A DNA stretch of 64,000 bases. Origin: Bordetella genomosp. 1. Its GTDB lineage: Bacteria > Pseudomonadota > Gammaproteobacteria > Burkholderiales > Burkholderiaceae_B. This document shows positions 24,574 to 56,319 of this stretch, piece by piece. The translations under genes and the position numbers were made by a program. The notes under the pieces are model-generated. The model did not search any database and was not told the origin of the DNA. It was given only the letters and a program-made list of their open reading frames with translations. The stretch spans positions 372,001 through 436,000 of the forward strand of contig NZ_NEVL01000004.1 in assembly GCF_002261335.1 (NCBI RefSeq), written 5' to 3'. Position 1 is the first letter of the stretch. Each line of letters opens with the position of its first letter.

Positions 24574-26805
24574 TCAATAGACAAGCTGTACTCCTGTTCC
24601 ATCGCAATCCATCGACATCAGATGCACGTCGGTCTGGCCGATGCGCAGTCCGATCACGTTTTCGATCAGCGGCTTGAGCAGGGCCGTGCCGATCTGGTCG
24701 AACAACGGCTTGATCAGATCCAGCAGGAATCCCACCAGCCCGAGCACGACATTGGGCGGCCCGCCTGCCGTCGGCGTGGCCGCGAGCGTGTTGGTGATCT
24801 GCGAGACGCAGCCCGCCACCGAACCGCCGATCGGGATGCCGAGCAGGCGGCTGGTGCACTGGTTGGTGGGCAGCAGCGCGCCCACGATATCGCCCAGCGT
24901 GGTGACCACGCTGCTGACGAGGTTCGACACCAGGTTGACCACGTTGCCGAGCAGGCTGCTCACGTTCAGCGACACCAGGCTCGTCAGCAGGTTGGAGGTC
25001 GCGGTCGGCAGGCCGGTGAGGAAGCCGCCCAGGTTGGTGGGCGCGTTCTTGATCTGGTTCAGCGCGGCCTGCGTGCGGTTGCTGCGGCAGGCGAAGCCCG
25101 CGGCGGTCTGCGCCGCCGAGGCGGTATCGGTACAGATCGACGAGGTGTTGTTCCAGAGCTCCTGCGCCATGTTCTGGATCACCTGGTTGCGCGTGCCGCT
25201 GGGCAGCGCCGCCCCCGCCTGCAGCGTGTTGCCGAGCAAGGCCCCGAGCAGCGCATCGGTGAGGTTCTTGATGGTGGTGCCCAGCAGCAGCGGGTTGTCG
25301 GTGGCCGGCACCGACTGGGTCTGGCCCACGTAGAAATCCGCGGCGCCGTTGGCCGGCAGCGCATTGATCACCAGCGGCGGGTCGGGCGTGAGCGATGCCA
25401 GCTCCGCGCCCAGCAGCGCCACGCTCAGCAGCTTTTTGGGCTGGAGGCCCTGCTCGCAGCTGGTGCTGGTGGAGAACGGCCAGTTGGCGGAGGCGCCCGC
25501 GGGCGGCCCGCCGACGCACAGCTTCAGGATCGAGGAGGTCACCGCGATGTTGGCGAGATCGCGGTTCGAGGCGTCGCGCCGCTGGCACAGCTGCGTGAGC
25601 GTGCCGTGCCCGTCGACCACGTCGATCGTGATCGGCAGGTCGATCGACAGCTTGAGCAGGGAGCTCAGCGGCGCCGGCAACGAGGCGGTGGAGACCTGGA
25701 TCGGCGCGTACACCCGCACCTGCGAGGTGTAGGCCGTGGCGCCCACGCCGCCGATCGCGATGGACGGCGGCTCGACCACGCTGAAGCGCGGCGTGACGCT
25801 GACCAGACCGCCCAGGCTGACGTTGGTGCCACCCTGCACCGCATGGCCGCCGGTGCCCACGCCGATCGCCGTCGACAGGACCTGCAGCGCATCGAGCTCC
25901 AGGTTGAGCGCCGAGTTGGCGTCGCCGGACGTGATGTTGGCAAACAGCGAGCCGCTGCGGCCCGGCGTGGTGGAACCCAGCTTGACCTGCAGGTTCGACA
26001 CGCCCAGCTTGGTCTGGATCGCCTGCAACAGGCTGACGTTCGCGGCGACCAGCTCGTTGCGGCCGGCCACCACCACGATGGCGTTGAGCACGTCGCCCAG
26101 CGCGCGCGTGTTGGCGGCCAGCAGCTGGTTGAAGTCGCCGAGCGAAATATTGGCGGGCACGGGTATGCCGAGCGCCTGCAGCAGCCCCGCCGGCGTGATC
26201 TTCACGTTGGCCAGCCCGCTGTCGTAGCCCACCAGCGAGGTGCCGCCCAGGTCGAGCCCGACCTGGCTCAACAGATTGGTGAGCACGCCCGGACGGGCCG
26301 CGATCAGCTTGGTGCCCACCGAGAACGCCGCGACCGGATCGCCGGGGCGCGCGCCGATGGCCTCGACGTTGAGCGTGAGGCCGCTCAGGTAAGGCACGAT
26401 GCCGCCGAAGGGCTTGGACAGGCCGACCCGCACCGCGTTGTAGCGCTCGCCCGAGTTGACGGGCCGCACGTAGCGCGGCGCCAGCGCCGCGTTGGTGTTG
26501 TCCCAGCGGTAGCAATCGGTGGTGACGGTGAGCTGGGTGGCGTTGTTGCCGAGGTTGCTGTTGACGTTGGCGCGCGCGGCCGCCATGGCGGCCGTGCAGT
26601 TCGCCTGCTGGCCCGCGCCCAGCAGTTGCGCCGCCGTGAGCGCGCTCAGGTCGGCGGCCTTCTGCAGCTCGCGCTTCATGTAGAAGAAATAGCCCAGCTG
26701 CGCGCCGCCGAGCAGCACCAGCCCGATCACGATGACGAGCGCGGCCGGCAGCAGGATCGAGCCCTGCTGGCGCCGCGAAGCCTGGCGGAACAGACGTGCG
26801 CGCAT
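24574..26805 (-). CDS. tadG: TadG-like minor pilus component
   Basis: 743 residues. The N-terminus (RRQQGSILLPAALVIVIGLVLLGGAQLGYFFYMKRELQKAADLSAL) is the Tad-locus TadG type: one membrane helix, then the AADxxAL sequence shared with TadE/G pseudopilins. The large periplasmic part is Leu/Asn/Ser-rich with many LLGNVV- and LGGLV-like stretches and a few cysteines. TadG proteins are thought to anchor or modulate the fimbrial machine. It follows the DUF3613 gene by 14 bp and precedes the sigma-54 regulator. Confidence 0.85.
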   Translation of the reverse strand: MRARLFRQASRRQQGSILLPAALVIVIGLVLLGGAQLGYFFYMKRELQKAADLSALTAAQLLGAGQQANCTAAMAAARANVNSNLGNNATQLTVTTDCYRWDNTNAALAPRYVRPVNSGERYNAVRVGLSKPFGGIVPYLSGLTLNVEAIGARPGDPVAAFSVGTKLIAARPGVLTNLLSQVGLDLGGTSLVGYDSGLANVKITPAGLLQALGIPVPANISLGDFNQLLAANTRALGDVLNAIVVVAGRNELVAANVSLLQAIQTKLGVSNLQVKLGSTTPGRSGSLFANITSGDANSALNLELDALQVLSTAIGVGTGGHAVQGGTNVSLGGLVSVTPRFSVVEPPSIAIGGVGATAYTSQVRVYAPIQVSTASLPAPLSSLLKLSIDLPITIDVVDGHGTLTQLCQRRDASNRDLANIAVTSSILKLCVGGPPAGASANWPFSTSTSCEQGLQPKKLLSVALLGAELASLTPDPPLVINALPANGAADFYVGQTQSVPATDNPLLLGTTIKNLTDALLGALLGNTLQAGAALPSGTRNQVIQNMAQELWNNTSSICTDTASAAQTAAGFACRSNRTQAALNQIKNAPTNLGGFLTGLPTATSNLLTSLVSLNVSSLLGNVVNLVSNLVSSVVTTLGDIVGALLPTNQCTSRLLGIPIGGSVAGCVSQITNTLAATPTAGGPPNVVLGLVGFLLDLIKPLFDQIGTALLKPLIENVIGLRIGQTDVHLMSMDCDGTGVQLVY

Positions 26806-27356: not shown

Positions 27357-28316
27357 TCAGGGCTGCACGGGCGTATTGCCCATTCTGTCGAGCAGGGGCC
27401 GCTGCAACACGGGCAGCGGCATCGGGGTGGCGGGGGCCGTGGCGGCGGGCGCGGCGGCGGGCCTGCGGCCGTCCTCGCCGACCTGGCGTACCGCGGGCCG
27501 GCTCGTCGTGGCCGCGTCCTGCGGCGCGATCGACACCGCGGCGAGCGTCTGCGCCGGGCGGGCGGACTGCTGGGTCCGCTGGCGCTCGCGGATCTCGCTG
27601 GCCAGCTCGCTCACGCGTTGCCGGGCCGGCTCGGGCAACTGGGCCTGGTCCATCACGTGGCGCGCCGAGGCCTCGTCGCCGGTCACGAGCAGCAGCAGGG
27701 CCAGGTTGCCGATGATGCGCACATTGGTGGGATCGAGCTCGGCGGCCTGCCCCATGGGCACGCGCGCGGCAGCGGGGTCGCCCGCGCGCAGCAGCGCGTA
27801 GCCGAGGTCGCCGAGATACTGCGCGTCGGTGGGGCGCAGCTGGGCGGCACGCGCGATGCGGTCGGCGGCCGCCGGGAAGTCGCCCTGCGCGCCGGCCAGC
27901 AGCCCGAGGCCATGCCAGCCGCGCGCGGCCTGATCGCCGTTGAGCAGCGCGCGATAGACCTGTTCCGCGGCCTGCGGCTGGCCGGTCATGCGCAAGGCAT
28001 CGGCGCGCAGCGCGGCGAGCTCGGTGGACTCGCCATACGACTGCCGGTAGGCGTCGATGTAGGCGAGCGACGCGAAGTAGCGGCCGTCGCGCTGCGCCTC
28101 GCGGATCATCGACAGCGCCATCTCCGGCGGCGTGGCCGCATTCTTGCGCATGTCCCGGTCGGCCTTGTCCTGCGCCAGCGCCTGTTCGCGCTGCTGCTCG
28201 CGCATCAGCTGCTGGGCCGTTTCCACGCGCGAGGCCTGGCAGCCCGCCAGCACCGCGACAGCGGCGGCGGCGGCCAGCAGGCGCCCGGCTCGGTGATCGA
28301 TCGAAGTGCGCACCAT
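27357..28316 (-). CDS. tadD: TadD, TPR lipoprotein
   Basis: 319 residues. Lipoprotein signal with lipobox LAGC; then a central tetratricopeptide solenoid (about 70-250: EMALSMIREAQRDGRY, RADALRMTGQPQAAEQVYRAL, LGLLAGAQGDFPAAADRIARAA, LGDLGYALLRAGDPAAARVP), ending in a Pro/Ala-rich tail. TadD is the pilotin-like partner that helps the secretin RcpA reach and multimerise in the outer membrane. Start ATG 28316 overlaps the tadC stop by one base (TGATG). Confidence 0.88.
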   Translation of the reverse strand: MVRTSIDHRAGRLLAAAAAVAVLAGCQASRVETAQQLMREQQREQALAQDKADRDMRKNAATPPEMALSMIREAQRDGRYFASLAYIDAYRQSYGESTELAALRADALRMTGQPQAAEQVYRALLNGDQAARGWHGLGLLAGAQGDFPAAADRIARAAQLRPTDAQYLGDLGYALLRAGDPAAARVPMGQAAELDPTNVRIIGNLALLLLVTGDEASARHVMDQAQLPEPARQRVSELASEIRERQRTQQSARPAQTLAAVSIAPQDAATTSRPAVRQVGEDGRRPAAAPAATAPATPMPLPVLQRPLLDRMGNTPVQP

Positions 28317-29317
28317 CAACTTCCTCCCGCCACCTGCGACAGACCGCGCACGATGGCTATGAATCCGGACCCGCCCGTCACGATGAGCAGCGCGGGCAAC
28401 AAGGTCATCACCATCACGCCGGTCATCTTGACCGTGAGCTTGGCGACCTTGGCCTTGAGTTCGAGCTTGCGCTTCTCGCGCACGCGTTCGCTGAAGCGGC
28501 CGAGCGGCTCCTGCACCGCGCCGCCATGCTTGTCGACCTGCACCATGAGCCGGCAGATGGCGGTCAGGTCCTCGTTGTCGTAGCCCTCCGCCAGCCGCGC
28601 CAGCGACTGCTCGCGCGTGCGGCCCCGGGTGTGCGCATCGGCCGCGGCACGCAGCTCCTGGCTGATGACCGGCATCGCCGCGCGGAAGTCGTTCACCAGC
28701 ACATGGATGCTCTGGTCGAGCGAGAGGCCCACGCCCTGCAGCAGGCGCAGCAGGTCGATCAGCAGCGGCAACTCCTCGCCGGCCTTGCGGCGGCGTTGCG
28801 ACCAGCGCCGCATCAGCCACCACTTGGGCGCCATCCAGCCGATCGCCAGCCCGAAGAACAGGACGGCCGCCACGCCCAGCAGATTGAGCGCGGGCCAGCG
28901 CGCGTCGGCAAACATCCAGCCGGCCAGCGGCAGGGCCAGGGCCAGGAACGCGCGGGCGGCTATGAACAGGCCGCGTGCGCGCGGCACGTCGGCAAAGCCG
29001 CAGGCGTCGAGCAGGCGCCGGTCTTCGTCGGCCAGCAGCGACTCGCCCAGCTTGCCCGCGCCGATGCGCAGGCCGGCATCGCTGGCCGCGTGCGCGACCG
29101 CCTCGATGCGCTCGCGCGACGAGCGCGGCGCGGTCTCGACCTCGATCGCGCGACCCTCGCGCGCGGCAATGGCGCGTTCGACGGTGCGCAGGCTGCGGCC
29201 CTGCCGGCCTGCGCGCATCAGCAGCGCGCCGCCCACGATCAGGCAGCCCACCATGAGGGCGCAGAGGGCGCCGATGAGCAGCCAGCGCGACAGCGGATCG
29301 GAGAGCATGAGCGCCAT
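28316..29317 (-). CDS. tadC: TadC, inner-membrane platform protein
   Basis: 333 residues of the type II secretion F (GspF/TadC) family. Membrane segments near 12-35, about 110-160 and at the C-terminus (VMVMTLLPALLIVTGGSGFIAIV); cytoplasmic T2SSF domain with GVGLSLDQSIHVLVNDFRAAMP and EPLGRFSERVREKRKLELKAK. With TadB it forms the inner-membrane base that couples the ATPase TadA/CpaF to pilus assembly. It lies 6 bp after tadB. Confidence 0.92.
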   Translation of the reverse strand: MALMLSDPLSRWLLIGALCALMVGCLIVGGALLMRAGRQGRSLRTVERAIAAREGRAIEVETAPRSSRERIEAVAHAASDAGLRIGAGKLGESLLADEDRRLLDACGFADVPRARGLFIAARAFLALALPLAGWMFADARWPALNLLGVAAVLFFGLAIGWMAPKWWLMRRWSQRRRKAGEELPLLIDLLRLLQGVGLSLDQSIHVLVNDFRAAMPVISQELRAAADAHTRGRTREQSLARLAEGYDNEDLTAICRLMVQVDKHGGAVQEPLGRFSERVREKRKLELKAKVAKLTVKMTGVMVMTLLPALLIVTGGSGFIAIVRGLSQVAGGS

Positions 29318-29323
29318 GGCCGC

Positions 29324-30246
29324 CTACACTCCGCGCGCCATGCGGTAGAGCCAGTAGGAGCCGCCCACCTGCAGGCCCGCCGCCAGCATCAGCATCTTGA
29401 AGCCGAGCTCGTCGTTCCACATGCCCATGAAGAGCGCGTTGTTGGTCATGATGATGAAGAGCGCCACGCCGATGGGCAGCAGCGCGAGCACCCAGGCCGA
29501 CAGCCGCACCTCCGCCGACAATGCGGTCAGCTCGTTGCGCGCCTGTTCGAGGTCGCGCATGAAGCCCGCCATGCGCTCGAGCACCTGGTCGCTGCGGCCG
29601 CCGAAGCGCAGCGCCAGCGAGATCACGGCCGACACGAGCAGCAGTTCCTGCAGGCCATACTGGCGCGCGACCTGGGACAGCGCCACGTCGAGCTCCTTGC
29701 CCGAGCGCGCCAGCGCGTCGGCGCGCTGCACCACCTCGAGCAGCGGCTGTTCCACCGAGCGCGTGGCCGACTGGAACGCCGAGCTCACGCTGTTGCCGAT
29801 CATGATGAGCCGCACCGCCGCGTCGAGAAACTCGGGCAGTTGCGCGATCATGCGGCGCTTGCGCTTGTCGGCCTTGTACCAGATGCGGAAATAGCCGCCG
29901 AGCAGGAGCAGCACGGCGCCGGCCGCGGCGGCCGCCGGGCCCGCCGCCAGCCACAGCACGGCGCCGACCAGCAGCGGCGGCAGGAACAGGATGAAGTAGA
30001 TGCGCTGGTTGGAGGGCTCGCCCGCCAGCAGCAGCAGGCGCGACCAGGCGTTGCCGCCGCGGCGGATCGGCTGCATGAAGGTCTGGGCGGTCACCGACGC
30101 CGCGTTCGCCCGGCCCTGGTCCAGGCGCGTGTCGAGATAGGCCGAGGTGGCGCTGCGGCGCGCGACCGACGTGGCGCGCAGCACCAGCACGAAGGCGGCC
30201 GCGAGCAGCAGCAGTGCGACCGCGGCCAGCAGCAGCGCCGTCGACA

Positions 30247-30250
<4 letters not shown>
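29324..30250 (-). CDS. tadB: TadB, inner-membrane platform protein
   Basis: 308 residues. Same T2SSF family as TadC: N-terminal helix (STALLLAAVALLLLAAAFVLVL), a cytoplasmic domain with LPEFLDAAVRLIMIGNSVSSAF and GLQELLLVSAVISLALRFGGR, and two C-terminal helices (LPIGVALFIIMTN, LMLAAGLQVGGSYWLYRMA). It partners TadC. ATG 30250 overlaps the cpaF stop by four bases. Confidence 0.92.
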
Positions 30251-31620
<1,370 letters not shown>

Positions 31621-32975: not shown

Positions 32976-34322
32976 TCACCGTGAGAAACCCGGCATCTGC
33001 TGTCCCCCCATCGGGCCCAGCAGGTAGTAGCCCCAGGCGGTGCTTGCACGATCGGTCACCTCCTGCCGCTCCCCCGGCATGGGCAGCGTCACCCCGCGGG
33101 CGATCGGACGGACCAATCGTGGCGTCACCACGATTACCAGCTCGTTGTCTTCTTGCGAGTACTGCACGCTGCGGAAGAAGGCGCCGATGATCGGCAGGTC
33201 TCCCAACAGCGGAATCTTGTTGACGTTCGCCTTGGTCTGGCGCGACACCAGGCCGCCGATCAGATAGCTCTCGCCGTCGCCCAACTCCACCATCGTGTCG
33301 GCCTTGCGCGTGCGCAGCGCGGGGATCGTGGTGATCTGGTTGGTATCACCGGTCACGATGCTGATGCCGTTGGCGTAATCCAGCTCGCTCGCCTCCGGCG
33401 CCACCTTCAGCGCGATGCGGTCGCGCGAGATCACCGTGGGCGATACGGTCAGGCCGATGCCGAACGGCTTGAACTCGATCGTCTGCGTGCCAAGCCCCGC
33501 CGACACCGGAATCGGAATCTCGCCGCCGGCCAGGAAACTCGCGCTCTGCCCCGACATCGCCAGCAGCGTCGGCTCGGCCAGGATGCGCGCCATGCCATTG
33601 CTTTGCAGCAGTTGCAGCGTGGCGTTGAAGTTGCGGCTGTTGTAGGCGATCCCGCCCAGGAACCCGCTCAACTCCGGCAGCAGCGACACGCCGCCCGTCA
33701 CCCGGCCACCGCCCGCGTTGAAGGCCACCCCGATGTCTTTCATCACCGAGCGCGACACCTCCACCACCTTCACCTCGACCTGCACCACGCCGCTGGTCGC
33801 GATCTGCGACACGTCGACCTGGGTCTTGGGATCGCCCGCGGCCTCGGACGCCGCGCGATGCGCATCTGCCGACGGCGCCAGTCCGGTCAGCACGCCGCGG
33901 CCATCCGCGGTGGTGTCGACCTGAACGCCGGGCTGCACGCCGCGCCGCGCCAGGGCCGCCTGCGCATCCGAGAGCACCCGCACCACCCACACCTGCGGAT
34001 CGCGGCTGTTGCGCGTCCACACCCGCAACTCGGTGGTGCCCGCCTTGCGGCCCACCACCAGCACTTCTCCCGCACTTCCCGTACCCGAGAGCACCTTCAC
34101 ATCGGCCACGGCCGGGTCGGCGACGGCGATGCGGGTGGGCGGCGCGCCCAACCCGAGGGGCTGCTGGCCGTTCACGCTCACCAGCAATTCGCCCATGCGC
34201 GGCTGCGCGGCCGCGCCCTGCGCAGCCGCCGCGGGCGTCTGCGCATGGGCGGCACCCACCGGCAGCAGCGCCGCCAGCCAGAGGCCCATCCAAATCTTCC
34301 TGCCTATCCCCGATGCATTCAT
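32976..34322 (-). CDS. cpaC: RcpA/CpaC outer-membrane secretin
   Basis: 448 residues. Signal peptide ends in LPVGAAHAQ. N-terminal N0/BON-type region (ELLVSVNGQQPLGLGAPPTRIAVADPAVADVKVL ... GTTELRVWTRN), then the secretin core with VQVEVKVVEVSRSVMKDIGV, PVSAGLGTQTIEFKPFGIGL and the C-terminal KIPLLGDLPIIGAFFRS, typical of type II/IV secretins. It forms the outer-membrane ring through which the Flp pilus passes. The C-terminal extension (ASTAWGYYLLGPMGGQQM) is low complexity. It follows cpaB by 79 bp. Confidence 0.93.
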   Translation of the reverse strand: MNASGIGRKIWMGLWLAALLPVGAAHAQTPAAAAQGAAAQPRMGELLVSVNGQQPLGLGAPPTRIAVADPAVADVKVLSGTGSAGEVLVVGRKAGTTELRVWTRNSRDPQVWVVRVLSDAQAALARRGVQPGVQVDTTADGRGVLTGLAPSADAHRAASEAAGDPKTQVDVSQIATSGVVQVEVKVVEVSRSVMKDIGVAFNAGGGRVTGGVSLLPELSGFLGGIAYNSRNFNATLQLLQSNGMARILAEPTLLAMSGQSASFLAGGEIPIPVSAGLGTQTIEFKPFGIGLTVSPTVISRDRIALKVAPEASELDYANGISIVTGDTNQITTIPALRTRKADTMVELGDGESYLIGGLVSRQTKANVNKIPLLGDLPIIGAFFRSVQYSQEDNELVIVVTPRLVRPIARGVTLPMPGERQEVTDRASTAWGYYLLGPMGGQQMPGFSR

Positions 34323-34401
34323 GCGTTCTGTTTCCGGTTGCTGGTTGCTCGCGCCGTTACGGCGGGCGCGGGTCGCGATTCGGTGCCGACGCTTGGGTCC
34401 T

Positions 34402-35361
34402 CTAGTAATTGACGGTGGAGATCTCCCCGCCACGAATGATTTCGACGCTGCGGCCGCCACCCTGTCGCGGCGCGCGCGGCGGCGCCTCGGGCGTCGGCTG
34501 GGGCCCGGCCAGCTGCGGCAGGGCATCGCCGGCGAAGGCCGCATTGATGCCGTCGCGCGCGCTCGCCTGCTGCGCGGGCGTCAGGCCGCTGCGCGCCGTC
34601 AGCACGGGCGCGCGGCGCGGGAACAGCGACGGATCGGGCATGGACTCGTCTTCCGGCGAGCGCAGCACGAGTTGCAGCTTGCCCGCGCGCGCGGCCAGCA
34701 GCAGCTCGTTGACCCGCTCGACCGGCACGGCCAGGATGGCGTTGCGGACGGCCACCGGCGCGTTGTTGCTCGTGTTCTGGGCCTGTGCCTCGGCCGGTCC
34801 GGCGAGCGAATCGGGACCATAGGCCAGGACGCGCACGCGCGATTGCAGCAAACGGGTCTGCGTGCCGGGCACCTCCTGGCTGCGATCCATCATCAGGAAC
34901 ACGTCGATCATGTCGCCCGGGCGGATGCGGTTCTGCGCGCCCGTGAGTTCGTCGACAGGGATGGTCACGGCGCGCTCGCCCTGGCCCAGGAAGGTCGACA
35001 GGCCACGCACCACGTCGGCGCTCATGACCGGCTCGTTGGCGGCCAGCGCCTTGCGCAGCACGCGGCCCTCCACGGCCTTGGGATCGGTCTCCACGCCGCC
35101 CGGCTGCACCGGCCATTGCGCGACGCTGAGCTTGTCGGCGGTCAGCACCGCCCCGGCCTCGACCGGCGCGCTCACGACCAGCACGGGATAGGTCGGCGCC
35201 GGCGGCCGGGCCGGCGCGGCATCGGGCGCGGGCGCCTGGGTCTGCGCCATCGGCGCGGGCGGCGGCGGCGCGGGCCGCAGCGCGAGCTGGATGGCGAACG
35301 CGCCCAGCAGCAGGGCCACGAGCACGAACAGGCCGGCGATGATCTTGGTGGTGAGGCTCAT
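34402..35361 (-). CDS. cpaB: CpaB/RcpC, Flp pilus assembly protein
   Basis: 319 residues. One N-terminal helix (MSLTTKIIAGLFVLVALLLGAFAI), a Pro-rich linker, then the SAF domain (VLVVSAPVEAGAVLTADKLSVAQWP) and the RcpC core (GERAVTIPVDELTGAQNRIRPGDMIDVFLMM, AILAVPVERVNELLLAARAGKLQLVLR). CpaB/RcpC is needed for secretin stability. ATG 35361 overlaps the upstream gene's stop by four bases. Confidence 0.93.
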   Translation of the reverse strand: MSLTTKIIAGLFVLVALLLGAFAIQLALRPAPPPPAPMAQTQAPAPDAAPARPPAPTYPVLVVSAPVEAGAVLTADKLSVAQWPVQPGGVETDPKAVEGRVLRKALAANEPVMSADVVRGLSTFLGQGERAVTIPVDELTGAQNRIRPGDMIDVFLMMDRSQEVPGTQTRLLQSRVRVLAYGPDSLAGPAEAQAQNTSNNAPVAVRNAILAVPVERVNELLLAARAGKLQLVLRSPEDESMPDPSLFPRRAPVLTARSGLTPAQQASARDGINAAFAGDALPQLAGPQPTPEAPPRAPRQGGGRSVEIIRGGEISTVNY

Positions 35362-35831
35362 GGAGTGGACCCGGAAGGAATCTGCACGCTGGCCAGCGCC
35401 GACAGCGTCGACGGCAGCCACTGATTGCCGCCAGGCAGCGTGCCCGCGAGCGTGCGCATCATGCCCAGCAAAGGCCAGTCGGCCGCGTTATAGGAAAGCG
35501 ACACGCGGGCGCAGCGCTGCACCACGCCGTTGGCATCGGCCCAGGGGCAATTGGCCACCGTGACGGCGCAGGAGACGGCGAGCCAGTCGGCCTCCTGGCG
35601 CGCCGCATTGCAGGCGGCCGTGCCGTTGAAGGTGCCGGCCAGGCCGGTCTGCAGGGCGACCTGGGCGCCCTCGCCCACCGCCTTGGTGATTTTCTGTTGC
35701 GCCCAGAACAGCGACCCGAGACCGACGATGCCGCACAACACCAGCAGCAACAGCGTGATCGAGAGCGCGAACTCGATGGCGGCCACGCCGCGTTGGCGCT
35801 GCAGGCGCGAGGCAGGAAGGCGCGGCCGCAT
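35358..35831 (-). CDS. tadF: TadE/TadF-type pseudopilin (second copy)
   Basis: 157 residues. The N-terminus RLQRQRGVAAIEFALSITLLLLVLCGIVGLGSLF has the pseudopilin cleavage pattern: Gly followed by VAAIEF with Glu at +5, then a membrane helix; a prepilin peptidase would cut there. The periplasmic part has several cysteines (AACNAARQE, VSCAVTVANCPW, QRCARVS). I place it as TadF by position; TadE and TadF are hard to separate by sequence. ATG 35831 overlaps the tadE stop by one base (TGATG). Confidence 0.85.
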   Translation of the reverse strand: MRPRLPASRLQRQRGVAAIEFALSITLLLLVLCGIVGLGSLFWAQQKITKAVGEGAQVALQTGLAGTFNGTAACNAARQEADWLAVSCAVTVANCPWADANGVVQRCARVSLSYNAADWPLLGMMRTLAGTLPGGNQWLPSTLSALASVQIPSGSTP

Positions 35832-36313
35832 CACAGCCCCGCCGCGGCCGGCGCCGCCAGGGAGAGCTGCCCGCCCAGGCGCACGGAGGCGCGGGCGCGC
35901 AGCTCGGTCGGCACCACCAGGCCCATGCCCGGCAGCGTCGGCAGCAGCGGCGCGGACGCGTACGGATAGCGCACCAGCACTTCGATCTGGTCGGCGGCCA
36001 GCGTGAGTCCGCTGCACGCGCCGGTGCCGCCGATGCGGCCGGTCGGGCCGCACACGGCGATGGTGGACGGCGTGCCGCCCATCGAAGAGACCCATTCGAT
36101 CTGGTAGGCCGCGGCCGTCTGTGCACTGGTGGCGCGCGGCCCCCAGGCGCCCACCGCCTGCCAGCGCTGCGCGGCGCGCGCGCCCTCTTCGGCGGCGAAG
36201 TTGAGCGACTGCTGCGCGGCGAAGATGATGCCCCAGGTCAAAAGACCGTAAGCAACCAGGAAGAACACCACGAACACCAGGGAGAACTCGACGGCATAAC
36301 TGCCGCGCTGCAG
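35831..36313 (-). CDS. tadE: TadE pseudopilin, no canonical start at the expected place
   Basis: 160 residues if it starts at CTG 36313 (MQRGSYAVEFSLVFVVFFLVAYG), which gives the classical short pseudopilin leader: Gly then SYAVEF, Glu at +5, then a membrane helix. The rest carries NFAAEEGARAAQRW, a cysteine pair (VCGPTG, GACSGLTLAAD) and a hydrophobic C-terminus. In its frame there is no ATG near; the nearest GTG/TTG are at 36394 and 36388, which would add an Arg/Ala-rich 25-27 residue leader and overlap cpaA by about 150 bp. So the start is a CTG, an early GTG/TTG, or a sequencing slip at the cpaA end. Confidence 0.7.
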   Translation of the reverse strand: MQRGSYAVEFSLVFVVFFLVAYGLLTWGIIFAAQQSLNFAAEEGARAAQRWQAVGAWGPRATSAQTAAAYQIEWVSSMGGTPSTIAVCGPTGRIGGTGACSGLTLAADQIEVLVRYPYASAPLLPTLPGMGLVVPTELRARASVRLGGQLSLAAPAAAGL

Positions 36314-36738
36314 GCGACCACGCCGGCCGCCGCGCCGAACGGCAGCAGCCGCACGCCCTTGAGTGCGGTGCCCAGGCCGGCCGACCAATGCCACAGCGCC
36401 AGCGCGCCGCAGATGAGGGTGCCGAACAGCACCACCGCGGCCCACGGCCAGACGCCCACCCACAGGCCGAGCGCGGCCAGATACTTCACGTCGCCCGCGC
36501 CCATCCAGCGCATGGCCCACGCGATCACGAATACGAAGCTCGCGCCAAACGCGATCAAGGCGTCGGCCCAGCTCTGCGCACCGTAGTCCGGCCACGGCGC
36601 GGCGCCAAAGCTGGCGAGCGACAGCCATCCGAGCTGCACCAGCGCCGCGCCCACCGTCAACCAGTTGGGTACGCGCCGCATGCGCAGGTCGAAGTAGACG
36701 ACCAGGGCGTTGAAGGCCAGGAACGACAGCCACCACAT
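36238..36738 (-). CDS. cpaA: CpaA/TadV prepilin peptidase (A24 family)
   Basis: 166 residues with about five membrane helices. The aspartyl-protease signatures are seen: an Asp in VVYFDLRMRRVPNWL and the GAGDVKYLAAL motif (GxGD), both needed for prepilin cleavage. It should process Flp and the TadE/F pseudopilins. ATG 36738 has AAGGAGAAC just before it, while the earlier in-frame ATG 36762 has none. Its last 25 codons (CSAAVMPSSSPWCSWCSSWLL...) read unlike the family end and overlap tadE in another frame, so the true end may be shorter if the sequence has a frameshift. Confidence 0.85.
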   Translation of the reverse strand: MWWLSFLAFNALVVYFDLRMRRVPNWLTVGAALVQLGWLSLASFGAAPWPDYGAQSWADALIAFGASFVFVIAWAMRWMGAGDVKYLAALGLWVGVWPWAAVVLFGTLICGALALWHWSAGLGTALKGVRLLPFGAAAGVVACSAAVMPSSSPWCSWCSSWLLTVF

Positions 36739-36851
36739 GTTCTCCTTCAACAATCGTGGCACTCCAGCTTATAGGGGTGTAACCCGATCCGGCAGCGCAT
36801 CGCCCCCGCGTTGCGCAGCGAATCGACACGGGGCCGGGCCCCGACGCCGGC

Positions 36852-36910: not shown

Positions 36911-37093
36911 TCAGGTCGCCGGGGCAGTGCCGGACAAGCGGTTGCTGATACGGGTGAACAACCCGGTGAGGTCGGTTCCGAGGAGCGTGAGCGCGCCGAT
37001 GATGGCGACCGCGATCAGCCCCGCGATCAAGCCGTACTCGATCGCGGTGGCACCCTCTTCGTCTTTCCAGAAAGATTTGACGTGCGCAAGCAT
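36911..37093 (-). CDS. flp: Flp major pilin
   Basis: 60 residues, ATG 37093 with a perfect AGGAGG site. MLAHVKSFWKDEEG is the leader, cut after Gly14; the mature chain starts ATAIEYGLIAGLIAVAIIGAL with the Glu at +5 and Tyr at +6 that define Flp pilins, then a hydrophobic helix and the short C-terminus (LFTRISNRLSGTAPAT). It is the major subunit of the Tad pilus and the first gene of the operon. Only one copy is seen. Confidence 0.96.
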   Translation of the reverse strand: MLAHVKSFWKDEEGATAIEYGLIAGLIAVAIIGALTLLGTDLTGLFTRISNRLSGTAPAT

Positions 37094-37246
37094 GTGGCAC
37101 CTCCTAAAACAAGAAAACAAACGACAGTTGAAAAAAACGCCTCATACACTGCGGCGCTACAAAGCCATGACCAACCCCTCGCCGGCCAGGCCCATTCCTG
37201 CAGTCTTGCTTTACAGCTTGTTTATCTCTTTCCTGCGACGTCCGGC

Positions 37247-38053
37247 TCAGCGGACGGGCGCACCGGGGACCCGGCCGTCGTGCAGCAACGCGTCCATGCG
37301 TTGCGCCAGCCGCGCCTGGTAGCGCTTGTAGCTGCGATGCAGTTGCCAACGCATCGCGATCAGAATCAGGATGGCGCCTGCGAATGCCACGTAGGGCAAC
37401 GAGACACCTCCCACGTGCAGGCCGTCGTCGGCACTGCCCGTCGTGCACACCACCGTGGCCGCGACCACGCCGGTGTAATGCATGCCGCAGACCGCCACCG
37501 CCATCAGCACGGCCGCCACGATGCGCTGCCATTCGCGCTGCACATTGAACGCCAGCCACACGGCCGCGGTCGCCGCCGCGATGGCGATCACCACCGAGGC
37601 CACCACCAGCGGCGCGTCCCAGCGGAAAAACGCCGGCATGCGCATCGCACTCACGCCGATGTAATGCATCGCCGCCACCGCCAGCCCGGCCAGCACGCCT
37701 GCCACGGCACAGCGGAACAGCGAAAACGGCCGCCCGCCCACATACCAGAAGGCCGCGCCGGAAAACACGACGGCGACCAGCGCGCTGAAGAAGGTCGGCA
37801 CCAGCGCGTAATCAACCTCAAACGGCAAATTCTGTGCCTGCATACCGATGAAGTGCATGCCCCAGATCGCGATTCCCCCCATCGCCAGCGCGCCGATCAC
37901 GGCATATCCACGCCACGATTCACCGTCGCGCACGCTGTCGCGTATACGTGCGGCCGCGCTCAAGGCCACGTAGGAGCCGAGCAGGGCAATCACGAACGAC
38001 AGCAGGAACAGGCCGCTGTGAAACGAGAGAGGGACGATGTCTCCGGGGTTCAT
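37247..38053 (-). CDS. stand-alone MHYT-domain membrane sensor
   Basis: 268 residues with seven hydrophobic segments. Three motifs in successive helices define the MHYT domain: GMHFIGMQ, AMHYIGVSAM and GMHYTGVVAA, proposed to bind a metal and sense O2, CO or NO. No GGDEF, EAL or other output domain follows; the chain ends in a short basic cytoplasmic tail (MRWQLHRSYKRYQARLAQRM). It lies upstream of flp on the same strand (153 bp gap). ATG 38053 follows CCGGAGCACCC. Confidence 0.9.
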   Translation of the reverse strand: MNPGDIVPLSFHSGLFLLSFVIALLGSYVALSAAARIRDSVRDGESWRGYAVIGALAMGGIAIWGMHFIGMQAQNLPFEVDYALVPTFFSALVAVVFSGAAFWYVGGRPFSLFRCAVAGVLAGLAVAAMHYIGVSAMRMPAFFRWDAPLVVASVVIAIAAATAAVWLAFNVQREWQRIVAAVLMAVAVCGMHYTGVVAATVVCTTGSADDGLHVGGVSLPYVAFAGAILILIAMRWQLHRSYKRYQARLAQRMDALLHDGRVPGAPVR

Positions 38054-38524: not shown

Positions 38525-40240
38525 ATGAAGCCTGTACAGCGTGGTGTTGGTGTTCTCCATTACTCTCTGGCGGCCGCATTGGCAGGCTGCGCGATTAATA
38601 GCTGGGCAGACGCGCCGTTGCGCGGAAACCCGGTGGATTCGCTGCCGCAGATAGAAAGACCGGGGCCTTCCGCTCCCCCTCCCGTGGTGGCGCCGCCCAC
38701 GCCCGAGCAACAGGCCGTCCAGGCGCGCCTCGCCCAGCGCATCGTGCCGCGCAATTTCGACGTGGCAGGCGTGCATGCGATCGACTTCACGGAAGTCTCG
38801 GATTTGCTGACGCCGCTGGTGGGCAAGGAAATAACTGTTGCACAGCTCGTGCAGCAGGTGGAGAAGATTACCGAGCTCTATCGGGAGCGCGGCTATCCCC
38901 TTTCCTTCGCCCTGGTGCAGAACCAGAATTTCGCCAATGGCCTGGTCGTGGTGACCGTGGTCGAGGGCTATATCCATAATGTGCGCATCGAGGGCGATGC
39001 CGGTAATGCCAAGGACCGGCTGGAATATCTCGCCGAGCCCCTGACCGCCGAAAAGCCGCTGACGCGCGCCACGCTCGAGCGCGTGCTCAACCTGATGCGC
39101 ATCGTGCCGGGCGTCTCGATCAATCCCGCGATGGACCTGCCGCGCCGCGCCGACGGCGCGACCGAGCTGGTGGTGAATGCCTCGCTCAAGCGCGTCACCC
39201 TCAACGGCAACGTGGCCGACCTCGGCACCGGCATGCAGCCGCTGGTGAACGTGGGCACCAACAGCCTCACGCCGCTGGGCGAACAGGTCAAGCTCACGGG
39301 CGCCCTGCCGATCGGCCACAACGCGGTGACCTATCTGTCGGGCGAAGTGCGCGTGCCGATCGGCAACGACGGCCTGTCGTTCAAGCTCGACGGCTATCAC
39401 TATCAGGCCAAGCCGGAAGACGACGCCATCGAGATGCTGGGCTTCAACCGCAAGGTCACGAACGACCGGATAGGGGCGGCGCTGTCGTATCCGCTGATCC
39501 TGAACAACCGCCGCTCGCTGACCGCCACGCTCGGGGCCTATGCCGCCAACTCGAAGGATCGCTACGACCAGAAGAACAGCGACAACTGGCTGCAGCAGGA
39601 CACCCGCGTGCGCGCCGGCACCGCCGAGCTGCGCTACATCGACGTGCTGCCCGAACGTACCACCGACGTGAGCGCGTCGGTCTCGCACGGCTTCTCCGCG
39701 CTGGGGGCGAAGAAATCGATCAAGTCGAACTATGGTTATTCCGCCGACCCGGACATCGATCTCTCCTTCACCCGCTATAACGTGAATGCGCGCCAGTCAT
39801 TCGAGTTGCCGGCGCAGTTCGGCCTGGTTTTCAACGCGGCCGGCCAATACAGCAGCAGCGTGCTGCCGAGCTCCGAACAGGTCTCTTTCGGCAGCTGGCG
39901 CTTTGGCCTGGGTTATCCGCAAGGCGAAATCAGCGGCGACAAAGGATTTGGCGCGTCGGCCGAAATCAACCGCAGATTCGGCACCGGCTGGCAGTATCTC
40001 AGTGCGGTACAGCCCTATATCGCGGTCGACTATTCGCGCAGCTGGTACAACCGCGCAGACCTCAAGTCGCTCGACAACAAACATCTGTCGTCGGTCGCCC
40101 TGGGCCTGAGATTCACCGACGACCGGTATTACCTGTTCGATTTCAATGTCGCGAAACCCGTGGGCGCGGCCACGCTCAACAATAACGACCGCGACCTGCG
40201 CTTCAACGCGAACTATTCGCTTTTCTACGACGCCTTCTGA
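38525..40240 (+). CDS. TpsB/FhaC-like outer-membrane transporter, atypical
   Basis: 571 residues. Signal region ending in SWADA; a Pro-rich linker; a POTRA-type module (about 75-150: VHAIDFTEVSDLLTPLVGKEITVAQLVQQVEKITELYRERGYPLSFALV then VVTVVEGYIHNVRIEGDAG); then a 16-strand barrel ending in Phe. This is the ShlB/FhaC/HecB architecture that secretes partner exoproteins. It is odd because the invariant L6 motif VRG(Y/F), clear in the CdiB of this window, is missing: the matching place reads GLGYPQGEISGDKGF (Tyr464-Glu468). No TpsA-type exoprotein follows; instead a Gly-rich lipoprotein and a MarR regulator do. ATG 38525 was chosen over GTG 38519. Confidence 0.85.
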   Translation: MKPVQRGVGVLHYSLAAALAGCAINSWADAPLRGNPVDSLPQIERPGPSAPPPVVAPPTPEQQAVQARLAQRIVPRNFDVAGVHAIDFTEVSDLLTPLVGKEITVAQLVQQVEKITELYRERGYPLSFALVQNQNFANGLVVVTVVEGYIHNVRIEGDAGNAKDRLEYLAEPLTAEKPLTRATLERVLNLMRIVPGVSINPAMDLPRRADGATELVVNASLKRVTLNGNVADLGTGMQPLVNVGTNSLTPLGEQVKLTGALPIGHNAVTYLSGEVRVPIGNDGLSFKLDGYHYQAKPEDDAIEMLGFNRKVTNDRIGAALSYPLILNNRRSLTATLGAYAANSKDRYDQKNSDNWLQQDTRVRAGTAELRYIDVLPERTTDVSASVSHGFSALGAKKSIKSNYGYSADPDIDLSFTRYNVNARQSFELPAQFGLVFNAAGQYSSSVLPSSEQVSFGSWRFGLGYPQGEISGDKGFGASAEINRRFGTGWQYLSAVQPYIAVDYSRSWYNRADLKSLDNKHLSSVALGLRFTDDRYYLFDFNVAKPVGAATLNNNDRDLRFNANYSLFYDAF

Positions 40241-40241
40241 G

Positions 40242-40373
40242 CGTTACACACGTCCGGCGTTACGTAACGCCGGACGTAACGTACCCCGTAACACGTAACG
40301 AAATTCGCGGAAAAACAACATTCGCGCAGGCCGTCATTTCGTCTTTTTGCGAATACTTTTCTTTAACCGTTAC
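40242..40373. promoter_or_regulatory. cluster of CGTAAC/GTTACG motifs
   Basis: GTTACG or CGTAAC recurs in the 298-base gap after the transporter gene: near 40243 (GTTACA), at 40259-40268 (GTTACGTAAC), 40275-40280, 40287-40292, 40294-40299 and about 40367. Most cluster in and right after the 28-bp palindrome. It may be a multi-site operator upstream of the lipoprotein gene. The gap holds no other gene. Confidence 0.45.
40250..40277. repeat. perfect 28-bp palindrome after the transporter gene
   Basis: ACGTCCGGCGTTAC (40250-40263) is followed directly by its reverse complement (40264-40277), ten bases after the transporter stop. With no T-run it is not a standard terminator, but it could act as a transcript end or as an operator. 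Confidence 0.75.
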
Positions 40374-40538
40374 GTGGCAAATGCTTCGCAAGCCATTGAT
40401 TCACAAGGAATTCTTAAAACCGGAAATCGGCGATGGTCGGCGTTTAAGCAATATTCGAAAAAACTGGCATGAATTGTGCATAAGGAAAGGTATCGGGCGG
40501 TTTCCAGGCCTGAATACACCAAACCCTAGGAGTGCATC

Positions 40539-42095
40539 ATGCAAGTCAAAAACGTAAGCAGCCGCCCGACCCGTTTTGCGGCAACCCTGATGACCGTCGC
40601 CCTGATGGCTGCCCTGACCGCTTGCGGCGGTGGCGGCGGCAGCAAGCGCTCCGCCGGTGGTATTGGCGGCGGCGGTGGCGGCGGCGGCGGCGGTGGTACC
40701 GATCCCACCAATCCGACCGTGACGGCCGGCCTTTTGGAAACCACGCTGGGCGGCACCGGCGGCGCCGTCGATAATGCCCTGCCGCTCGGCACCAGCACCG
40801 CGCTGGCCGGCGTCGGCAAATCGCTCGACCCGACCGTCAAGCCGGTTATCGATACCGTGGAAAACCTGACCCAGACCATCGGTTCGCAAACCGGCCTGGG
40901 CACGCCCGTGGCCGGGACGCTGACGCAAGTCGGCGGCGCGGTCAGCAATCTGGGTGAAACCGTTTCCGGCAGCGGCCTGCCCGGCGGCCTCGGCACCGGC
41001 GTCGGCGGCCTGGTCGACGGCCTCGGCAATACCGTGGCCGCCGCCGGTGGCCTGCTGGTGGCCGATCCCAAGAATCCCGATCCGCTGACCAACGTGGCCA
41101 AGGAAGCCACCAAGGCCGTGGCCTCGCTGACCGGCGCGCTGGGCGGCGAAGGTGGCCTGCTGCAACCGGTCAACAGCCTGGTGGGCGGCCTGGCCGGCGG
41201 TGCGCTCGGCACCCCGGGCCAGCCCATCCTGCAACCGGCCCTGAGCAACACGGGTTCGGCGGTCGACAACGTGCTGCCGCTGGGCCTGCAAGGCGCCCTG
41301 GGCGGCGTGGGCCAGGCCCTGGATCCCGCCGTCGCTCCCGTGGCCGGCGCGGTGACCAACCTGACCACCCGCATCGGTGACCAGACCGGCCTGGGCGCGC
41401 CCGTCGCCGGCCTGCTGACCAGCGTCGGCGGCACCCTCGCCGGCGCCGGCTCCAACGTGCCGGGCGGCCTGCCGATCGGCGGCCTCGACGGCGTGCTCGG
41501 CGGCCTGGGCAACGCGGTCAGCGCCGCGGGCGGCCTGCTGCACACCGACGCCAGCAACCCGAATCCGCTGGGAAAAGTGCTGCAGGAAGCGACAGGCGCG
41601 GTGGCCTCGCTGACCGGCGGGCTCGGACTGGGCGGCGACGGCGGTCTGCTGAGCCCGATCACCGGCAACCTGGGCCTGGGCGGCCTGACGGGCGGCGCCG
41701 CCAACGGCGGATTGCTGGCCCCTGTGACCGGCCTGCTGGGTGGTGTGACGGGGAATACCGGCGGCAGCGCCAATGCCGGCTTGCTGGCTGGCCTGCTGGG
41801 TGGCGCGACCGGCGGTTCGGGTCAGAACAACGGCGGCCTGCTCGGCGGTCTGCTCGGCGGCGCAACGGGTGGCACGACCGGCGGCACGAATAACGGCGGT
41901 CTGTTGGGCGGCCTGCTCGGCGGCACGACCGGCGGCGCCACGAGCGGCAACACCGGCGGCGCCAACGGCGGCCTGCTCGGCGGTCTGCTCGGTGGCGTGA
42001 CCACGACGACCTCGGGCTCGACCGGCACCAGCGGCACCCCGAACGGCGGCCTGCTCGGCGGCCTGCTCGGCGGCGTCACCGGCGCCCTGAAATAA
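40539..42095 (+). CDS. glycine/leucine-repeat lipoprotein, partner of the atypical TpsB
   Basis: 518 residues. Lipobox LTAC (Cys29), then a polyglycine stretch. Residues about 60-205 and 225-375 are two copies of one module: AVDNALPLG.../AVDNVLPLG..., ...GVGKSLDP/GVGQALDP..., SQTGLGTPVAG/DQTGLGAPVAG, AAAGGLL/SAAGGLL, AVASLTG/AVASLTG. The C-terminal third carries about five copies of NGGLLGGLLGG separated by Thr/Gly/Ser runs. No TPS, FHA or other exoprotein domain. Such proteins are often auto-named collagen-like, but Gly is not at every third place, so I do not support a collagen helix. As a lipoprotein next to a TpsB-like barrel it might be displayed on the cell surface. Function unknown. 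Confidence 0.85.
   Translation: MQVKNVSSRPTRFAATLMTVALMAALTACGGGGGSKRSAGGIGGGGGGGGGGGTDPTNPTVTAGLLETTLGGTGGAVDNALPLGTSTALAGVGKSLDPTVKPVIDTVENLTQTIGSQTGLGTPVAGTLTQVGGAVSNLGETVSGSGLPGGLGTGVGGLVDGLGNTVAAAGGLLVADPKNPDPLTNVAKEATKAVASLTGALGGEGGLLQPVNSLVGGLAGGALGTPGQPILQPALSNTGSAVDNVLPLGLQGALGGVGQALDPAVAPVAGAVTNLTTRIGDQTGLGAPVAGLLTSVGGTLAGAGSNVPGGLPIGGLDGVLGGLGNAVSAAGGLLHTDASNPNPLGKVLQEATGAVASLTGGLGLGGDGGLLSPITGNLGLGGLTGGAANGGLLAPVTGLLGGVTGNTGGSANAGLLAGLLGGATGGSGQNNGGLLGGLLGGATGGTTGGTNNGGLLGGLLGGTTGGATSGNTGGANGGLLGGLLGGVTTTTSGSTGTSGTPNGGLLGGLLGGVTGALK
41818..42085 (+). repeat. tandem Gly-Gly-Leu-Leu-Gly coding repeat
   Basis: Several near-copies of a roughly 30-base unit (GGCGGCCTGCTCGGCGG-type) code for GGLLGGLLGG. 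The copies are close at DNA level, so copy number could change by slippage or recombination between strains. Confidence 0.7.
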
Positions 42096-42136
42096 TCGCC
42101 ACACGGTCCACGCACACGCCCATCCGGAGCCGCGTC

Positions 42137-42694
42137 ATGTACGAGTCCGAACGAATCGCGCCGCAAGACCACCGTCACGGCGACACCAGCGACCACTACG
42201 GCCCGTCGGCATCGCCCGACAGCGCCGCGGAGATCGCCCTGATCCTGAGCCGCCAGCTGTCAGTGTACATGGCCTCGAGCCAGGCAGCGCTGGCCGAAAA
42301 GCTGGGCATCTCGCTGACCGAGCTGAAGGCGCTCGATCTGGTCCAGGAGTTCGATGCCCTGCCCACCGGCCAGCTGGGTCAGTTGCTGGGCATCAGCTGG
42401 GGCGGCGCCACGGCGCTGATCAACCGGCTGGAGGCGGCGGGATTCGTGCAGCGCGGCCGCCATCCCCTGGACCGGCGCGTGATCGTGATCCGCCCGGTGG
42501 TCGAGCGCCTGCGCGAGCTGGACCGCGCACGGCGCGCGGCCACCGAGGAGGTGCAGTTCCTGAGCCGGCAGTACGACGCGCAGCAACTGCACATCGTGCA
42601 GGCCTTCCTGGCGCAATACGCCCGCACCCTGCGCCACGACACGCTGATGTGGTTGCAGAGCCGGCACAACGCCATGTCGGATGACCAAAGCTGA
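42137..42694 (+). CDS. MarR-family transcriptional regulator
   Basis: 185 residues. The winged-helix core (about 45-150) shows KLGISLTELKALDLVQEFDALPTGQLGQLLGISWGGATALINRLEAAGFVQRGRHPLDRRVIVIRP, the usual MarR DNA-binding helices and wing. The N-terminal 35 residues are polar and disordered-looking. ATG 42137 follows CCGGAGCCGCGTC, 42 bp after the lipoprotein gene on the same strand, so co-transcription is likely; its targets may include the palindrome/CGTAAC region upstream. A strong terminator follows. Confidence 0.88.
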   Translation: MYESERIAPQDHRHGDTSDHYGPSASPDSAAEIALILSRQLSVYMASSQAALAEKLGISLTELKALDLVQEFDALPTGQLGQLLGISWGGATALINRLEAAGFVQRGRHPLDRRVIVIRPVVERLRELDRARRAATEEVQFLSRQYDAQQLHIVQAFLAQYARTLRHDTLMWLQSRHNAMSDDQS

Positions 42695-42756: not shown

Positions 42757-42798
42757 CCTGTCCCTGCGCGCCAAGACGCCCGGGACAGGTTTTTTTTT
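42757..42798 (+). terminator. terminator after the MarR gene
   Basis: CCTGTCCC (42757-42764) pairs with GGGACAGG (42782-42789), followed by nine T. Confidence 0.9.
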
Positions 42799-56250: not shown

Positions 56251-56319
56251 ATGGGGCTTGTCCAGCGCGCGCTGCCCGCGCCGGACACGTTGTTTCACGT
56301 TATCGGGGGCCGTCTCATC

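Follow-up and report, generated by a model that had tools for sequence, protein, structure and literature searches.

A TpsB-like outer-membrane barrel without the loop-6 arginine is paired with a collagen-like PF15984 lipoprotein at a Tad pilus locus of Bordetella genomosp. 1

The outer-membrane barrels of two-partner (type Vb) secretion, the TpsB proteins, are generally regarded as exporters of beta-helical proteins bearing a TPS domain, whose folding on the outer side of the cell supplies the pull. In FhaC, an arginine of loop 6 and an aspartate of strand 13 form a lid lock (R450-D492; PMC4490367), and the VRGY motif has been termed essential (PMC5422565). A second described system is found in the Burkholderia cepacia complex (Bcc), whose PF15984 proteins are likely adhesins (PMC10224339) and have been tested as vaccine antigen candidates (PMC10303873). 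In Burkholderia cenocepacia, BCAL1524-1520 is a putative operon in the flp cluster (PMC2753556), with bcal1524 and bcal1523 listed as lipoproteins, bcal1522 as outer-membrane heme utilization-related, and a Flp pilus gene adjacent (PMC10224339). BCAL1520, BCAL1523, and BCAL1524 are induced along with flp genes by contact with host-membrane vesicles (PMC7970998); moreover, BCAL1524 is found in outer-membrane vesicles, and autoaggregation is lower without it (PMC10303873). Here, we analyzed 64,000 nucleotides of Bordetella genomosp. 1 (assembly GCF_002261335.1, contig NZ_NEVL01000004.1, positions 372,001 to 436,000 of the forward strand; "the window" below), in which the gene for a TpsB-like barrel (P0001) is followed by genes for a PF15984 lipoprotein (P0002) and a MarR-family regulator, all beside a Tad (Flp) pilus locus.

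Comparison of sequences establishes that P0001 is a barrel of the TpsB type lacking the lid arginine, that it is paired with a PF15984 lipoprotein, that no TPS partner is encoded nearby, and that the pair is linked to Tad genes. With moderate confidence, we consider it most likely that the pair serves to bring a lipidated collagen-like adhesin across the outer membrane in the manner of a two-partner system, in connection with the Tad pilus and under sigma-54 control. In the open literature (in which few subscription journals are covered), and in the portions of text seen, we found no paper that calls this barrel a TpsB, ties it to the lipoproteins, or names the sigma-54 site. A first-pass annotation, made from the letters of the window, had proposed the three-gene set, which was found to be real, but was silent on the PF15984 family, the neighboring Tad genes, and the signs of sigma-54 control, all of which were found here.

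That annotation described a FhaC/ShlB-like barrel with one POTRA domain. The barrel fold stands, as P0001 matches POTRA_2 (PF08479; 1.8e-18) and ShlB (PF03865; 1.2e-17), but its predicted model, which has the FhaC/CdiB fold, contains two POTRA domains and 16 strands; the full TpsB architecture (POTRA_2 plus a ShlB-type 16-strand barrel) is thus present. The annotation also reported that the loop-6 motif VRG(Y/F) is missing. Residues 463 to 466 of P0001 read GLGY and align in register with the VRGY or VRAY of other TpsBs, so that Leu464 replaces the arginine found at this position in 37 of the 39 control TpsBs that could be aligned (40 given). The literal motif, however, proved too strict, being present in just 8 of the 40 controls, with VRAY in 23; its absence was rejected as a mark of the clade because 32 controls lack it as well. 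The mark is instead the lost arginine, which is kept in only 6 of 81 sequences (the window and 80 relatives, with Leu in 36, Met in 35, Tyr in 3, and Gln in 1; L135, whose barrel is cut or broken, was left out) and lost in the other 75. The aspartate of the strand-13 (F/G)xDxG motif is present as Asp504 (the remaining motif deviates, reading VDYSR) and is found in 81/81 clade members and 38 of 39 alignable controls. As judged from these alignments, most clade barrels have lost one of the two partners of the lid lock. The six barrels with arginine (L084, L085, and L088 to L091) belong to Pigmentiphaga and near kin and have the same genes beside them; arginine loss is therefore not tied to the gene set and is not required for the pairing.

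In a tree of TpsB-like proteins, the barrel falls in a separate branch with support of 100/100, which bears out the earlier suggestion that it stands apart from ordinary TpsBs. The branch holds 17 core and 4 distant members, although the boundary between these two groups is uncertain, and the loop-6 arginine is also present in three of the four distant barrels. The tree group next to the clade contains three TpsB-like barrels (L132, L133, and L134, from genomes G136, G051, and G001) whose loop 6 reads ARGF or GRGF; no TPS match was found in G136 or G051 (79% and 94% complete), and G001 has one on another contig, so these barrels are possibly another TPS-free branch.

A search with P0001 of 250 genomes of the order gave some TpsB match in 99, with a marked step: seven genomes matched at E < 1e-110 and four at 1e-85 to 1e-70, and the next best match was 1.8e-31. 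The Pfam model PF15984 matched eight of the 250 genomes at E 0.001, seven of them above its cut-off, and these are the identical seven genomes that carry a core barrel (G000, which is the genome of the window, G007, G119, G121, G158, G207, and G237, from four families). Named relatives come from Bordetella, Achromobacter, Schauerella, Allopusillimonas, Alcaligenes, Pigmentiphaga, Cupriavidus, Burkholderia, Ralstonia, and Collimonas. With a purpose-built hidden Markov model, a PF15984-type open reading frame was found beside the barrel in 88 of 94 clade loci versus none of 40 control TpsB loci, as the annotation's picture of a lipoprotein rather than a TPS protein as the conserved neighbor would have it. 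The model was trained on clade loci, which biases the clade count upward, and the Pfam search serves as the independent check. The relatives are the best 80 of 246, so that the 94 loci lean toward close kin; two locus pairs are identical, and leaving out these duplicates and the window gives 85/91. Thirty-nine of the controls came from the match list of the 250 genomes and one from a separate search, with flanks of at most 8 kb, some of them cut by contig ends; clade flanks reached up to 10 kb, a slight advantage. The six misses comprise L070 and L071, whose contigs end less than 500 bp past the barrel, and the distant barrels L040 to L043, three of which have directly upstream a lipobox protein with Gly/Leu or true Gly-X-Y repeats (L042 has an intervening open reading frame).

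In Alcaligenaceae the barrel gene precedes the lipoprotein gene, and in Burkholderiaceae and Collimonas the lipoprotein gene comes first; as far as gene order tells, the pair has outlived rearrangement. The MarR gene has a narrower distribution. Among Alcaligenaceae-type loci whose downstream DNA exceeds 2 kb, it follows on the same strand in 36/36, whereas among the 33 loci L094 to L126 a MarR-like match occurs in only 7, on the opposite strand and 3.9 to 8.9 kb away. Thus, conservation of the proposed three-gene set holds for the barrel and lipoprotein, but MarR was rejected as a core member and is a local addition of Alcaligenaceae-type loci.

P0002 has 518 residues, a lipobox (LTAC), and eight overlapping GGLLGG motifs. 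It belongs to PF15984, Collagen_mid (bacterial collagen, middle region), with E 1.3e-18 and 68 bits against a cut-off of 31.1, and contains two copies, each corresponding to the second half of the profile. As a member of a named family it is not an unknown protein; the annotation's statement that it has neither a TPS nor an FHA domain was correct, no such family appearing among its Pfam matches, which were followed up to E 1. Of the relatives, 107 of 131 have a lipobox under a strict start rule and in 125 of 132 open reading frames, window included, under a looser one. The residue after the cysteine (n = 125) is Gly, Ala, or Ser in 119, Val in 4, Asp in 1, and Leu in 1; these counts were made free of the constraint in our first spacer-search pattern, which forced Gly, Ser, or Ala at this position. 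Lys, Arg, or His occurs in the last three residues of 113/125 lipoproteins (in P0002, window positions 42084-42092), these residues making up 2% overall, and this basic C-terminus is a possible export or assembly signal. In the predicted model of P0002 (pLDDT 66.3), two domains are helical and the GGLLGG tail is disordered; a beta-helix is thus not predicted, nor is a triple helix for the protein of this genome. Its longest strict Gly-X-Y run is 3 triplets, runs of at least 10 triplets being found in 10 of the 125 lipoproteins of the set. True triple-helical collagen was rejected on the lack of a long run in P0002 and the predicted helical middle domains.

Several observations concern the lipoprotein genes of individual loci. 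In L048, L052, L054, L057, L058, L059, L061, L067, and L086, the contigs stop inside the lipoprotein gene, 1.5 to 1.9 kb past the barrel; the repeats may break assemblies, and the gene is maybe undercounted in drafts. A second PF15984-type lipoprotein is encoded on the opposite strand beyond the first in L037, L044, L094, L096 to L104, and other Cupriavidus-type loci. Allopusillimonas and Alcaligenes loci (L080 to L083) have up to three lipoprotein copies interspersed with MarR genes.

Given its POTRA_2 and ShlB families, P0001 might be an ordinary TpsB whose TPS-domain partner lies elsewhere in the genome, and TPS proteins are indeed encoded by its own genome and by 6 of 10 other genomes of the clade. 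Yet no TPS domain (PF05860) was found within 8 kb of the clade barrel in its own or the 10 further clade genomes, so that the locus has no TPS-domain partner encoded alongside, whereas 30 of the 40 controls have one within this distance (a hand count from coordinates). Moreover, four of the 10 further genomes (G121, G207, and G237, which are core, and G191, which is distant; 99 to 100% complete) gave no TPS match anywhere, and the two TPS-domain proteins of the barrel's own genome each adjoin their own canonical TpsB. A partner encoded at a distance was rejected on these grounds, and we regard the ordinary-TpsB explanation as very improbable. One of the two pairs is in the window at 54496-63657, where a canonical CdiB-like TpsB (PF03865, 6.4e-77) is followed by a 2468-residue TPS/filamentous-haemagglutinin protein; the other is at G000 C2:154837-156900. 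Because the lid arginine and the TPS partner are both missing while the fold is kept, we say that the barrel pair probably works like a two-partner system and do not call it one.

The window contains an adjacent set of Tad genes for Flp pilin, CpaB, a secretin, the ATPase, and a pair of T2SSF proteins, lying upstream of and divergent from the barrel gene. Tad genes are present in 85/94 clade loci versus 0/40 controls; the nine loci where none was seen are five with less than 4 kb of upstream DNA (L037, L087, L088, L098, and L111) and those of the four distant barrels. A Flp pilin match was found in 45 of the 250 genomes and a core barrel in 7, all of which have a Flp gene within about 4 kb of it; the pair is therefore an accessory of some Tad loci. 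As side observations, the MHYT protein encoded between flp and the barrel has matches in 40/94 loci, and the window's genome has a second Flp pilin match outside the window (G000 C4:1143786-1143926).

This linkage, together with the sigma-54 activator in the same locus, would also fit a barrel that assists the Tad machinery as one of its outer-membrane components (serving secretin assembly or pilus stability), the lipoprotein being a co-regulated pilus-linked adhesin that takes another route. We think this rather unlikely, though it deserves some weight: Tad pili manage without the barrel in 38 of the 45 Flp-positive genomes, three distant barrels keep a repeat lipoprotein with no Tad gene found beside them, and the 7 of 250 genomes that have a core barrel are also those that have PF15984. 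The latter two facts also speak against a further explanation, namely, that the genes are neighbors without joint function, which shared regulation and descent of the Tad island have kept side by side. All 250 genomes searched belong to one order, and the Alcaligenaceae lipoprotein gene has its own promoter, as such an explanation would allow; however, the pair has been kept through changes of gene order between families, and we consider mere neighborhood quite improbable.

The lipoprotein gene is preceded by a conserved sigma-54-type promoter with a palindrome upstream, as established by comparison across loci, and the Tad locus encodes a sigma-54 activator. Within the window, the sigma-54 pattern is matched exactly only by the predicted promoter, TGGCATGAATTGTGCA. 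A strict sigma-54 promoter lies upstream of 95/124 lipoprotein genes versus 0.3% of shuffles, and the palindrome core GTTACGTAAC upstream of 75/124 versus 0.03%; the survey took in 124 of the 132 lipoprotein open reading frames (the rest have short upstream DNA or no lipobox), and the shuffle preserves non-overlapping dinucleotides only. The core segment CGTTACGTAACG occurs once in the whole genome, counting exact matches only, and on this basis a wider regulon of the palindrome was rejected. The palindrome was also rejected as a terminator of the barrel gene, since no T run comes after it and, in the 71 genes with both elements, its core lies 113 to 269 bp 5' of the sigma-54 promoter. All seven core genomes have a sigma-54 activator in the Tad locus; in the six other than our own it is a near full-length orthologue (53 to 71%) 12 to 15 kb from the barrel, the copy in G158 having an in-frame stop, and the four distant genomes gave partial and generic matches only. 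In one B. cenocepacia genome, about 15 kb separate the orthologue (57%) from the barrel, provided that locus L126 was taken from contig C1, as we assumed; the orthologue's position would then be that of BCAL1536, making the activator GtrR-like by position. BCAL1536 has been named GtrR and linked to RpfR (PMC12838280), and it is among the predicted RpoN-type enhancer-binding proteins (PMC5295037). The Tad-encoded protein is a candidate activator of the lipoprotein promoter.

The route that we propose is an inference as regards lipidation, transport, display at the surface, and binding of the activator; it would begin with the Sec system and the lipobox placing the acylated N-terminus of the lipoprotein at the outer membrane. 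The POTRA domains of the dedicated barrel would then receive the unfolded Gly/Leu-rich chain, perhaps via its conserved basic C-terminus. The chain would go through the barrel pore or seam, with the post-Cys stretch spanning the wall, so that the helical middle domains and repeat tail would come to lie outside and act in adhesion or aggregation. Finally, the Tad-encoded activator would bind the GTTACGTAAC palindrome and switch on the lipoprotein with the pilus program; the regulatory prediction is that this activator acts through that site on the lipoprotein promoter.

Alternatively, the barrel may be a holder and no translocator, the post-Cys stretch threading or plugging it in a fixed complex, as RcsF forms with outer-membrane proteins. 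The stretch between Cys and the first middle domain is 35 to 263 residues long in 125 lipoproteins (median, 102; 38 in P0002), and loss of the lid arginine could free the lumen. Nevertheless, the POTRA_2 domain and TpsB architecture fit the handling of a client, and many loci have several lipoproteins per barrel, and we therefore regard a holder as unlikely.

Several findings weigh against the preferred reading of a surface route under sigma-54 control. The loci are related by descent, so their counts are not independent events, and barrel and lipoprotein may co-occur because they function jointly in some way other than transport. The arginine is retained in Pigmentiphaga-type barrels and in three distant ones, which uncouples its loss from function, and no Tad gene was found within 4 to 6 kb on either side of the four distant barrels. 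The distant lipoproteins of L040 and L041 carry Asp after the cysteine, in E. coli a signal for inner-membrane retention. Some PF15984 genes have no barrel gene in their vicinity (G007 C1:2198397 and G158 C173:19529), and the same is true of three of the five in B. cenocepacia J2315 (PMC10224339, Table 1); the barrel is therefore either dispensable for some of them or acts in trans. As to regulation, 25/124 lipoprotein genes have neither promoter nor palindrome, including that of L047, from the closest relative, in which the core is altered. With one mismatch allowed, the window shows no excess of the sigma-54 pattern (12 matches versus 11.8 expected), and the palindrome core arises in 25 of 100 window shuffles; as the sequence comparisons stand, it is only conservation that speaks for pattern and palindrome.

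The features of the locus are collected in the table below. The barrel gene was taken to start with ATG at 38525, a GTG also being present at 38519. The annotation had a MarR gene with a terminator after it, and both were recovered: the regulator matches its family at E 8.8e-10, and a hairpin at about 42757-42789 (-20.2 kcal/mol, z -3.2) is followed by nine T. A simple terminator scan did not return this hairpin because its loop exceeds the length that the scan allows.

Features of the barrel-lipoprotein locus and the neighboring Tad genes, in coordinates of the 64,000-nucleotide window
Feature	Position	Strand	Remarks
TpsB-like outer-membrane barrel P0001	38525..40240	+	signal region, two POTRA domains, 16-strand barrel; Pfam and model
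Loop 6 of P0001, GLGYPQGEISGDKGF			Leu464 replaces Arg; Asp504 retained, strand 13
28-bp perfect palindrome, core GTTACGTAAC	40250..40277	.	candidate enhancer (upstream activator site) for lipoprotein gene
Predicted sigma-54 type -24/-12 promoter TGGCATGAATTGTGCA	40465..40480	+	begins 74 bp 5' of lipoprotein start
PF15984 collagen-like lipoprotein P0002	40539..42095	+	lipobox LTAC, Gly-rich stretch, GGLLGG tail with terminal Lys
P0002 predicted helical middle domains	residues ~65-218 and ~231-362		GGLLGG tail disordered
MarR-family regulator	42137..42694	+	E 8.8e-10; set member in Alcaligenaceae-type loci only
Intrinsic terminator 3' of MarR	42757..42798	+	
MHYT-domain membrane protein	37247..38053	-	6e-43; between flp and barrel, divergent
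Flp pilin	36911..37096	-	PF04964 1.6e-20
Putative prepilin peptidase	36238..36762	-	named by sequence reading; no match in NCBIfam
CpaB/RcpC pilus protein	34402..35421	-	TIGR03177 2.6e-50, above cut-off
CpaC/RcpA-type secretin	32976..34544	-	secretin models to 2e-34, under their cut-offs
Pilus ATPase (T2SSE), TadA/CpaF type	30247..31620	-	5e-63
Two T2SSF proteins, TadB/TadC type	28316..30625	-	
TPR protein, TadD-like	27357..28313	-	
TadG-like protein	24574..26805	-	PF13400, PF09977
Sigma-54 enhancer-binding activator, Fis-type helix-turn-helix	23158..24558	-	PF00158 7.7e-65; adjoins TadG-like gene

Taken furthest, and as a tentative proposal that we hold with somewhat less than even confidence, the locus may represent a new branch of type V secretion in which a TpsB-fold barrel with neither the Arg-Asp lid lock nor a TPS signal displays an N-terminally acylated, helical, collagen-like adhesin. 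The basic C-terminus of the adhesin would be what is recognized, and a GtrR-like sigma-54 activator would drive its synthesis jointly with that of Tad pili. If so, pilus and surface glue would be one switchable program. A clade that mostly lacks the lid arginine and has a lipidated, predicted-helical partner would also probe the purpose of the lid lock and the way in which a chain lacking a beta-helix is pulled out, and the route, if real, would be a way to the surface for PF15984 proteins, the proposed adhesins (PMC10224339).

How does the locus compare with described systems? Like the Slam (DUF560) translocons, it would be a one-barrel outer-membrane translocon with a lipidated client and no ATP (PMC9090332). 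DUF560 is, however, absent from the Pfam matches of P0001 up to E 1, which sets it apart from Slam. To our knowledge, Slam is without the POTRA_2/ShlB architecture, whereas the barrel here is TpsB-like. The set sits within a Tad/Flp pilus locus of flp, cpaB, secretin, T2SSE, two T2SSF, TPR, TadG-like, and sigma-54 activator genes, although we know of neither a barrel of this kind nor such a lipoprotein as a standard Tad part, and ordinary Tad/Flp loci differ in that 38 of 45 Flp-positive genomes have no core barrel. With FhaC/FhaB and CdiB/CdiA it shares the barrel family (PF08479/PF03865), the two POTRA domains and 16 strands, a loop 6 in register, the strand-13 aspartate, and the pairing of a barrel gene with a surface-protein candidate; unlike in those systems, the neighbor has a lipobox, no TPS match, and a predicted helical fold, the lid arginine is lost in 75 of 81 barrels, and a Tad locus and sigma-54 features are present. 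The locus also resembles that of the Bcc collagen-like proteins, the BCAL1524-BCAL1520 operon of B. cenocepacia, which has the same PF15984 lipoproteins and a neighboring Flp locus, and whose bcal1522, at 1686 bp by its tabulated coordinates (PMC10224339, Table 1), is as long as the B. cenocepacia barrel gene of L126 including its stop (9920-11605, with the chosen start). The Alcaligenaceae form differs from that operon in its reversed gene order and its additional MarR gene.

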